Shown here in pieces: positions 61,482-64,000 of a DNA stretch of 64,000 nt. Within the stretch, counting starts at the first letter, position 1. Each line of letters begins with the position of its first letter. Source of the DNA: a candidate division WOR-3 bacterium (GTDB taxonomy: Bacteria > Hydrothermota > UBA3072); NCBI GenBank assembly GCA_039804165.1, contig JBDRZZ010000001.1, positions 92,962 through 156,961 on the forward strand, in the 5' to 3' direction. The translations under genes were made by a program, and so were the position numbers. Under the pieces are notes generated by a model. It saw only the letters and a program-made list of their open reading frames with translations. It ran no database searches and had not been told where the DNA came from.

Positions 61482-61820
61482 TTACGAGATTGAAAAAGAT
61501 AAGTTATCAATAATTGTATTTAAGAGTAAATCCAATAATCTATTTTTAAATAGTTCTATTTTCACCTTCGCAACGCCTTGTTGGTGTAATTTCATGCATT
61601 CAAAAGTCTGAATCTGTGTTTTTATTAAATATTCAAATTCTTCTTGGTTGATTTTACCTTCTTCCAAAGCATTTGTCCATATTTTTACATCTTCTTTTAG
61701 GGAATCTAAAAATGCTTCGCACTCTTTTTCTGCTTGAATTATGTTTTCTTTTAACAAATCTTTTGCTAATTCAAGAACTTTCTTTTTTAAATCTTCAAAT
61801 ATTACTTCAAAGTTTATCAT
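61482..61820 (-). CDS. Small helical protein of unknown function
   Basis: 112 aa, very rich in Glu, Lys, Leu and Ile and predicted all-helical, with a coiled-coil-like N-terminal half (FEDLKKKVLELAKDLLKENIIQAEKEC). No signal peptide or known motif. It lies 5 nt after the lipoprotein gene and belongs to the same operon. I do not recognise it. Confidence 0.55.
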   Translation of the reverse strand: MINFEVIFEDLKKKVLELAKDLLKENIIQAEKECEAFLDSLKEDVKIWTNALEEGKINQEEFEYLIKTQIQTFECMKLHQQGVAKVKIELFKNRLLDLLLNTIIDNLSFSIS

Positions 61821-61825
61821 AAAGA

Positions 61826-62260
61826 TTATTGTTTATAATTTTCAATAAAAGATTGAACTTCTTCTTTCTTAATTTTTTTGCTTTCTAAATCAATGATTAA
61901 ATTAAAAATCTTTTCTACTTTTATCTTAACTTCATTAATAAAAAAATCATTCAGCCTTTCATTTTTTCTCCATATTTCAATAAACCCATTGAACATCTCT
62001 AAAATAATTTCCCACATTTTAGAGGTTTCGTAATTTTTAGGCTTATTTTTCTCGTATTCATATTGTTTTTTTAAGTTCAGTAAAACTTTCTCAATTTGAT
62101 CTTCATACTTAAGATATTCTTTAGTTCCTTTACCCATTAGCTCCAAGGTTTCTACCTTAGCAGAGATAGTCTCTTTGTATGAATAACTGTCAAAATAGGA
62201 GATTGTTGGAGCACATTTAATAAAGAAAATGCTGAAAAAAAGAAAGAAAAAATTTTTCAT
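61826..62260 (-). CDS. Small lipoprotein of unknown function
   Basis: 144 aa. Signal peptide MKNFFFLFFSIFF with a lipobox ending in IKC (Cys 16). The rest is helical and charged (KYEDQIEKVLLNLKKQYEYEKNK). It overlaps the upstream TolB-like gene by 4 nt. It has no similarity I can name; Asn, Lys and Ile content is high. Confidence 0.6.
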   Translation of the reverse strand: MKNFFFLFFSIFFIKCAPTISYFDSYSYKETISAKVETLELMGKGTKEYLKYEDQIEKVLLNLKKQYEYEKNKPKNYETSKMWEIILEMFNGFIEIWRKNERLNDFFINEVKIKVEKIFNLIIDLESKKIKKEEVQSFIENYKQ

Positions 62261-63759
62261 CTTACTATTTTTGTGGCACCTGATAGAGCATCTATATTAA
62301 CTGTTGAATCAAACATTGTTTCTAAGGGTGTTTTTTTGGTAACCTTCAAAAGCTTCCAATGACTAATTTTTATAGGTCCTTTAATCAATTCTGGGACATT
62401 ATAATTTTTAATGTAAGTGTCGTAAAATGTTGGATCTTTTTGTGGCATTAAAAATGGCTTATAGGCATTTCCAAGAGAATCAACATAACTGAAATATAAT
62501 CTGGAGCAAAGACCATCTTCTCTTTTACTTGCAAAAACAAACCAATGACTATTACTTGACCAACTATGATAGCTTTCGCTTTGTTCGCTATTTATATTGA
62601 GTTTCCAATACTTTTTTGTTTTAAGATCCAACATATAAAGATCACTGGATTTAAAATGTATTGAAAAATATCCATAATCACTCATACAGAATAGTAAGAA
62701 TTTCCCGTTAGGGGAAATTCTTGGGAAAGAAATGCTTTTTCCTGTTTCTTTTGAAGTGAGAACTGGTTCCACTTCCCCCCATTCATTTTTTTCGAAATCA
62801 TAGGGAATTCGCATAAGATCATATTTCAATTTTAATTCTTCTTTTCTTTTAAATTCTGGGGCACTAGTGAAATATAAATATTTCCCACAAGGGCTCCAGG
62901 TCGGTGTATTCTCTAATCTTTTTGTTGAAACTTTTGGGGATGTAGTTATTGTATTTGTTTTTATATTGTAAATAATTATATCAGAAGCCTTATCCCAAAC
63001 ATAAATGCTTTTGTCTTTTTGAGCATGGAATGATTGATATATTTTGTTAACCGAAAATGCAATGAGATTTCCATTTGGATGCCAGGAAGGATAAACCCCA
63101 GGAGACATTGTGTATTTTGTGCTAGTGTTTATTTTATTTATGCTACCATTTTTTACTAAAATTGTTCCAGGAAAATCGCCTCTTATATGGAAAATCATTT
63201 CCTCAGGGTTATTATTACAAAAAGAATGACAATTTATACAATTATGTTTTATAGCTCTATTTGTGAAAATTGGAGTTTCCTTAAAATTTTCAAGATTGCG
63301 CTCATAAATGCCCATTTCCCACCACAAAACATAGCCAGGATTTATTAATCTATAGACTACATAACTATCAATTTCTTCTTTTGCAATTTTGTTCTGAATT
63401 GTTTGAAACTTGCTCCATTTATTATTTTTACTTTTCAAGTATATATCTATATATAGCTCTTTTCCCCGATTCTCAGACAAAAGTTTTTTCCATTTTTTTA
63501 TCGGAATCTTTACAATATTTTTATGGGTTTTTATCCAGATATGCTTTTTATTCTCTCCATAAATATCTATAAAGAATTCTAAACCTTCTTCTTCAATCTT
63601 GAAATTTAAAGGGGCGATATTTGGAGGAATAATTATTTCAGTGTAATCAGGGCTAATATGGGGGGGACGGTTATTCTCTATGTAATTTGAAATAGACTTG
63701 GTACAACTAAAGACAAGGGTTATTAGGAGTGCTATTATTAATTTACAAAATATCCTCAT
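62257..63759 (-). CDS. TolB-like beta-propeller lipoprotein with a CxxCH heme-type motif
   Basis: 500 aa. Signal peptide with lipobox LVFSC (Cys 19). After a beta-rich segment a CINCH motif (about residue 174), part of HNCINCHSFCNNNPEEM, could hold one heme c. A propeller of WD40/PD40-type repeats follows (YPSWHPNGNLIAFSVN, TPTWSPCGKYLYFTS, FPRISPNGKFLLF, YHSWSSNSHWFVFAS). It is like periplasmic PD40 proteins of Bacteroidetes annotated as cytochrome c biogenesis or TolB-like. Function unknown. It overlaps the next upstream gene by 17 nt. Confidence 0.75.
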   Translation of the reverse strand: MRIFCKLIIALLITLVFSCTKSISNYIENNRPPHISPDYTEIIIPPNIAPLNFKIEEEGLEFFIDIYGENKKHIWIKTHKNIVKIPIKKWKKLLSENRGKELYIDIYLKSKNNKWSKFQTIQNKIAKEEIDSYVVYRLINPGYVLWWEMGIYERNLENFKETPIFTNRAIKHNCINCHSFCNNNPEEMIFHIRGDFPGTILVKNGSINKINTSTKYTMSPGVYPSWHPNGNLIAFSVNKIYQSFHAQKDKSIYVWDKASDIIIYNIKTNTITTSPKVSTKRLENTPTWSPCGKYLYFTSAPEFKRKEELKLKYDLMRIPYDFEKNEWGEVEPVLTSKETGKSISFPRISPNGKFLLFCMSDYGYFSIHFKSSDLYMLDLKTKKYWKLNINSEQSESYHSWSSNSHWFVFASKREDGLCSRLYFSYVDSLGNAYKPFLMPQKDPTFYDTYIKNYNVPELIKGPIKISHWKLLKVTKKTPLETMFDSTVNIDALSGATKIVR

Positions 63760-64000
63760 CGGCTATTTTACTCCTTAATTCAAGTTTTGTTCTTTTGGGG
63801 TTAAGATAAAGTAGGTAATACCAATAAGTGTTGTGAAATTCTTTCTCAAGATATTCTTTTGCCTTTTTGTCTCTTTTTGATTTAATTTTAGCTATATTGA
63901 AAAGTTTAAATTTTTCAATTGTCTCTGGACTGATTCTCCATTCTTTCATATTGATTTTTGATGGCGCACCAATCATAATTACTAAAATAGCTTCTTCTAT
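63743..64000 (-). CDS. C-terminus of a protein of unknown function (5' partial)
   Basis: The frame stays open to the window edge, so the gene starts outside. About 85 C-terminal residues are visible (ending TKLELRSKIADEDIL). The part KEFHNTYWYYLLYLN is like a motif at the end of Bacteroidetes membrane proteins found next to the CxxCH propeller lipoproteins, but I recall this only loosely. It overlaps the propeller gene and should be in its operon. Confidence 0.5.
   Translation of the reverse strand: MEEAILVIMIGAPSKINMKEWRISPETIEKFKLFNIAKIKSKRDKKAKEYLEKEFHNTYWYYLLYLNPKRTKLELRSKIADEDIL

Follow-up and report, generated by a model that had tools for sequence, protein, structure and literature searches.

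The DUF6057–CxxCH propeller gene pair of a WOR-3 bacterium: a conserved two-gene module with a putative role in envelope redox chemistry

At the end of the analysed DNA (here called the window, 64,000 nucleotides from a candidate division WOR-3 bacterium) a gene of the family DUF6057 is followed by the gene of a propeller protein with a CxxCH motif, and together they are a real, widespread and conserved two-gene module. With a probability of about 0.6 we consider this pair to be an envelope redox module acquired from outside the phylum, which combines a heme c propeller with DUF6057 and in the subfamily of the window probably also contains FMN. According to the proposed mechanism, DUF6057 would be located in the inner membrane and expose a TPR-like domain, and the CxxCH propeller would be exported, anchored and supplied with heme c by System II (ResB/CcsA) machinery. 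Both proteins may then act in a complex that carries electrons with a single heme or serves as a redox enzyme, at the outer side of the membrane. ApbE would probably add covalent FMN to the flexible C-terminal tail (DALSGAT) in the subfamily of the window, and with FMN on the tail and heme in the same protein, a short path for electrons through both cofactors would be possible. We infer extracytoplasmic electron transfer as the function of this module, including the direction and the partner of the electron flow.

The propeller gene and its DUF6057 neighbor

The propeller gene (62257..63759, minus strand) encodes a probable envelope lipoprotein of 500 amino acids. It starts with a signal peptide (63700..63759, minus strand) ending in the lipobox-like sequence VFSC with C19, which like the other lipoboxes mentioned here was judged by eye; 41 of the 75 aligned propeller members likewise have a cysteine there. 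Then follow CINCH (residues 174–178; 63226..63240, minus strand), the predicted covalent heme c attachment site, PD40 repeats (PF07676, E 3.5e-15 in a Pfam profile search) and, close to the end, DALSGAT (residues 490–496; 62272..62292, minus strand). A succession of lipobox, CINCH and PD40-type repeats had already been proposed in the preliminary description and is confirmed, as is the assignment to the TolB-like propellers: the structure model (pLDDT 93.7) has TolB as nearest solved fold (Z 26.4, rmsd 3.2, 276 aligned; Foldseek E 3.8e-14), followed by other matches such as the TolB-like protein 2ojh (Z 21.3, rmsd 3.4, 253 aligned) and YWTD-type propellers (Z about 20). Since the propeller is a common fold, these matches alone tell nothing about function. 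The open reading frame overlaps with the upstream DUF6057 gene by 17 bases and with the downstream gene of a 144-aa protein by 4 bases, values inflated by the mechanical choice of the first start codon.

From the upstream gene the window contains only the 3′ end (63743..64000, minus strand), with the stop codon falling within the start region of the propeller gene. This partial gene had been regarded as an orphan of unknown function, which does not hold: the complete gene cut by the window (L005:4705-6654, minus strand, 649-aa open reading frame) matches DUF6057 over its full length (PF19529, E 5e-115, profile positions 9–568 of 569, 386 bits compared with a curated cut-off of 29.8). Its model (pLDDT 92.1) shows long hydrophobic helices in the N-terminal half, presumably membrane helices. 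The C-terminal half is TPR-like and matches, e.g., Tom70 (Z 12.3, rmsd 3.9, 89 aligned), with a Z value that is common for helical repeats. Foldseek gave no PDB match for this model at E ≤ 0.001, and a further structure comparison produced matches mostly on the TPR part (residues 299–462). Comparison of the DUF6057 profile with the PDB also yielded mostly weak TPR matches, the best one (E 0.0034) being a designed TPR-fold protein, besides some matches that look like chance. Past the end of the window a GH43 enzyme with a Por_Secre_tail domain is encoded (L005:7454-9721), and the presence of this domain suggests a putative type IX-like secretion in the lineage.

Distribution and conservation of the module

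A scan with one genome per species detected at least 510 stretches encoding relatives, from which the best 77 loci were kept, so that all counts given here refer to the closer relatives within the family. According to their record titles, these best 77 of at least 510 loci represent seven or more named phyla and candidate divisions, namely Bacteroidota, Planctomycetota, the candidate divisions KSB1 and WOR-3, Calditrichaeota, Ignavibacteriae, Verrucomicrobia and Gemmatimonadaceae. Among their 84 propeller reading frames 76 have DUF6057 directly upstream on the same strand, four are located at a contig edge and four occur without DUF6057 (L022, L037, L044, L078). A family of unknown function is thereby tied to a CxxCH protein and gains a testable function. 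The pair can also be repeated in tandem, as on one Planctomycetota chromosome with four DUF6057 genes, three recognised propeller genes and a further open reading frame at the end of the locus (L090:1389-15452).

The 74 other aligned members share 39–68% identity with the propeller protein of the window. Residues invariant in 75/75 include C174, C177 and H178 of the CxxCH motif as well as R137, R154, R193 and W226. In a larger set of hits CxxCH is present in 101 of 102 (93 distinct sequences), and the sole exception ends ahead of the motif. Because of this conservation in aligned relatives and further hits, CxxCH cannot be a product of chance. Distant relatives with CGNCH were found near the module in Planctomycetota (L084:8688-10994, L086:2356-4656 and L048:8581-11199); they possess long C-terminal extensions that appear repeat-like by eye.

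A description of the module was not found in the open-licence literature that was searched. In open-licence PMC articles nothing was retrieved for DUF6057 or for PD40 together with cytochrome and CXXCH, and among the matches listed for combinations of propeller with CXXCH or flavinylation, as far as their titles and the beginnings of their abstracts tell, there is seemingly nothing on this protein.

The C-terminal tail as putative flavinylation site

The propeller protein of the window terminates with ...NIDALSGATKIVR, in which DALSGAT ends four residues ahead of the C-terminus. The review PMC12052999 gives the recognition motif of ApbE as the seven residues D-x-x-[S/T]-G-A-[S/T] with FMN on the last one, and reports that tagging works best at a terminus, a short terminal tag being a laboratory tool. 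There, yields are also described to drop when the glycine or alanine of the motif is changed, and serine in place of the last threonine is accepted at lower yield (PMC12052999). Residues 490–496 correspond exactly to the strict motif, which places the predicted FMN on the last threonine, and the genome encodes ApbE (G000:C16, E 3.3e-68).

Among 86 distinct propeller members 15 contain the strict motif, always at most 32 residues from the C-terminus and in some cases with serine instead of threonine. As background served 748 other open reading frames of at least 150 aa from the same loci, of which none has the motif in its last 60 residues and three have it anywhere. The remaining 71 members, including the paralogue from the same genome, are devoid of it. 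The tails of the 75 aligned members comprise 15 strict, 23 near and 37 other forms; the near ones (DALSSAT, DAVTSAT, DMPITMAT and others) were set by a loose custom pattern and at least one of them (L078) looks like chance. On the tree these three tail states require 13 changes compared with a mean of 31.8 after shuffling. The strict motif occurs in Bacteroidota, KSB1, the genus of the window and Planctomycetota.

It is quite possible, though we would not favour it, that the heme is real and the protein a plain mono-heme carrier, with DALSGAT being an unrelated conserved tail, e.g., a docking or sorting signal. The 37 members with neither strict nor near form fit such a tail, as do many Planctomycetota sequences ending in TMAT or TSAT instead of SGAT. 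Against it stand the exact match over seven residues and the preference of ApbE for a terminus, as given in PMC12052999. Co-occurrence of ApbE with the motif is a weak test, as ApbE is present in 45 of 50 module genomes and, across the phylum, in 48 of 60; the module genomes were reached from 50 of the 77 loci, with the motif scored in the copies within loci only. In G065, with three strict-motif copies, ApbE was not detectable, which agrees with an unrelated tail; this genome has three FMN_bind proteins, however, and these would be expected to depend on ApbE. G083, to which locus L065 was assigned by accession, is also without ApbE and has FMN_bind proteins; its L065 copy shows SGAT minus the aspartate and its L046 copy no motif. 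The FMN_bind proteins of both genomes make a missing or divergent ApbE likely. The genomes G090, G093 and G096 contain neither ApbE nor FMN_bind, and the copies seen there (L060, L063, L068, L083) have no motif, which again speaks against a tail unconnected with flavin.

Two observations concern other flavoprotein systems. RnfG from the own genome (L094:6163-7095) reads DAITQAT without glycine where the motif expects it; if RnfG is flavinylated as elsewhere, this glycine would be dispensable in the lineage. In a chromosome without detectable ApbE, a distance of about 1 kb separates two strict-motif propeller genes (L021:9496-13443) from a cluster of Rnf type with RnfB/RnfC-like and FMN_bind genes.

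Covalent FMN on DALSGAT is plausible for the subfamily of the window. If this prediction is true, the terminal tag known from the laboratory also exists in nature, on a cytochrome, and one small envelope protein combines flavin with heme.

Heme c and its maturation

The preliminary description had made the heme dependent on a cytochrome c maturation system, and such a system is indeed encoded beside the paralogous module of the same genome. There (G000:C8) a second DUF6057 gene (L006:7147-8949) and a second propeller gene (L006:5612-7192) are followed by a Rid/FkbO-Hyg5-like (chorismatase-like) gene (L006:4416-5603, minus strand) and by a ResB/CcsA fusion with a Cytochrom_C_asm match (L006:2040-4445) on the strand opposite to the second pair, 1.2 kb from the second propeller gene. 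In the sister genome a homologous assembly gene begins 60 bases behind a propeller gene, and locus L060 has the order Cytochrom_C_asm, Rid-like gene, DUF6057, propeller. The same homology search found no further assembly homologues in the best 77 loci.

Own and sister genome contain a single Cytochrom_C_asm match each. Within the class, 2 of 10 sampled genomes have such a match and these are the two with the module, a co-occurrence that may go back to a single event; among 50 other sampled genomes of the phylum 15 have Cytochrom_C_asm without a full-length propeller gene. When 51 genomes were searched (those reached from 50 of the 77 loci plus the own genome), 48 had a match and three did not. 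A single acquired redox system may be the reason why this genus keeps cytochrome c maturation. PF13442, the plain cytochrome c domain family, has no match in its genome from the window at E ≤ 1.

With CINCH behind a lipobox-like signal and the ResB/CcsA fusion in the genome, heme c on the propeller CxxCH is likely from genome context. For the case of bound heme, a redox or sensory surface factor had been envisaged earlier; the context supports the heme part, and between the two roles we favour the redox one. Candidate distal ligands vary among the 75 members: H227 is kept in 74, H398 in 66, M188 in 63, H191 in 56, H245 in 55 and M149 in 52.

Alternatively, CxxCH could form a redox disulfide or a metal site (e.g., for zinc) in a heme-free envelope protein with a structural or sensory role, an explanation that we consider unlikely. 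In c-type hemes CxxCH is usually found in a helical setting. Here the structure model puts C174–F180 on a beta strand, and Pfam matches of the 75 members include no cytochrome c domain. In hydrazine synthase the histidine of one CxxCH ligates zinc, yet according to PMC12607021 heme is bound there too. A site without heme is opposed by the complete C-x-x-C-H with invariant histidine in all aligned members and by the assembly genes beside the module in the own, sister and L060 loci.

Chorismatase-like genes and the role of DUF6057

Relatives of the chorismatase-like gene are present in 17 of the best 77 loci and in ten of them lie directly downstream of the propeller gene; none was seen adjoining the pair of the window. 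Among solved structures the closest full-length relatives are 5ag3 (E 3.2e-10), which we take to be the chorismatase Hyg5, 5a3k (E 7.8e-9) and FkbO 4bps (E 4.3e-8). The motif D-[VI]-C-x6-E is kept in 17 of 18 distinct genes (own gene included), the remaining one being incomplete. In the alignment of the sister protein with 5ag3 the cysteine and the glutamate of this motif fall on residues 327 and 334, and Glu-334 is catalytic in Hyg5 according to PMC7170507.

The distribution of these genes touches a last explanation as well as a more far-reaching form of the main one. That DUF6057 is a GT-C-like transferase or transporter with the heme propeller as accessory or sensor, acting in envelope glycan or small-molecule chemistry and not in electron transfer, is rather improbable: the chorismatase-like genes, an N-terminal arrangement in the model where short loop helices come after the first long helix, and a conserved PGG..[ED] stretch in the N-terminal part, both features presumably resembling GT-C enzymes, would fit, but among the Pfam matches of 65 DUF6057 members (E ≤ 0.01) there is no GT-C family, and the structure matches barely cover the membrane part.

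To return to the envelope redox module, its most far-reaching form is offered tentatively and with more doubt than confidence. The propeller would be a c-type cytochrome with a natural C-terminal “flavin tag” and, with DUF6057 as membrane partner, would represent an undescribed flavo-heme envelope unit that spread between phyla and in this genus is accompanied by a gene for cytochrome assembly. Certain lineages would have gained a chorismatase-like enzyme in addition, as a possible source of a phenolic substrate or redox mediator.

Origin of the module and the small downstream genes

The phylogeny of 75 propeller members was reconstructed with a quick method, leaving out the C-terminal tail and with SH-aLRT support only. 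In it the protein of the window groups with the sister genome and KSB1 (support 99, six rows), the second copy (G000:C8) with Ignavibacteriota and a Bacteroidetes MAG (support 98, four rows), and one copy from the sister genome is placed among Planctomycetota (support 98, nine rows). Full-length copies are confined to the two genomes of this genus out of 60 from the phylum, with G001 and G060 taken as one genome because of two genes at identical coordinates; three others gave weak partial propeller matches (E 4.6e-4 to 7.5e-4). From these placements and the restriction to one genus, several separate acquisitions of the module from outside the phylum would be the simplest reading.

Behind the propeller gene two small genes form an independent unit. 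The first one (61826..62260, minus strand) encodes a probable lipoprotein of 144 aa and the second one (61482..61820, minus strand), starting five bases after it, a helical protein of 112 aa. Their homologues are also direct neighbors in a different family of the phylum, on a 7.5-kb contig (G010:C112) with neither module gene on it (39% identity to L097:1483-1908 and 32% to L097:1920-2246). As the small pair is found without the module elsewhere in the phylum, here it is an independent pair placed behind the module. In the best 77 module loci relatives of either protein were absent, and for the 144-aa protein none was found in the sister genome. The operon with orphan genes assumed in the preliminary description thus dissolves into a module whose upstream gene belongs to a named family and a separate unit. 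That the small lipoprotein and the helical protein belong to no known family was correct: the former is without any match in Pfam, NCBIfam or PHROG, the latter has only weak ones in these collections, all under the cut-offs (E 0.02 or worse), and no match among plasmid records. The lipobox of the 144-aa protein is non-canonical (FIKC; FVGC in its relative).

All four genes had also been called unusually rich in Asn, Lys and Ile. An enrichment exists (fractions of 0.294 for the propeller, 0.340 and 0.295 for the 144-aa and 112-aa proteins and 0.277 for DUF6057, with a median of 0.245 in 62 mechanically called open reading frames of the window), but it is moderate and other reading frames of the window have higher values. 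It goes along with a locally low GC content (0.25–0.31 versus 0.34). As the propeller paralogue from the same genome lacks it (0.232), the composition tells nothing about function.

Comparison with known systems

The upstream gene is a plain full-length member of DUF6057 (PF19529) with no difference noted. For the propeller several known proteins can be compared. Cytochrome cd1 nitrite reductase also combines a propeller with heme (Foldseek E 1.5e-7), but the TM-score with the propeller of the window is low (0.31); it has a separate cytochrome c domain and carries heme d1 in the propeller. Hydrazine synthase from K. stuttgartiensis is an enzyme with covalent c-type hemes. The propeller part of its chain D (5c2v, considered the alpha subunit because of its 770 residues) matches with Z 23.8, rmsd 3.7 and 294 aligned residues, ranking under twelve TolB entries and over the other propellers listed. 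Identity is 10%, and the aligned range stops at residue 552, ahead of the CxxCH of heme alpha-I (His587, as given in PMC12607021). This fold match covers the propeller only, and the solved hydrazine synthase is not among the 35 sequences from the A3 profile (E ≤ 1).

With the ApbE substrates NqrC and RnfG the protein shares the motif D-x-x-[S/T]-G-A-[S/T]; it differs from them since propeller proteins have no FMN_bind match and their motif sits on a tail. TolB provides the best fold matches and likewise has PD40 repeats, but with 32.7 bits the protein of the window scores far under the TIGR02800 equivalog cut-off (343.15 bits). Unlike TolB, it has the invariant CxxCH as well as an additional tail at the C-terminus, and it is paired with DUF6057.
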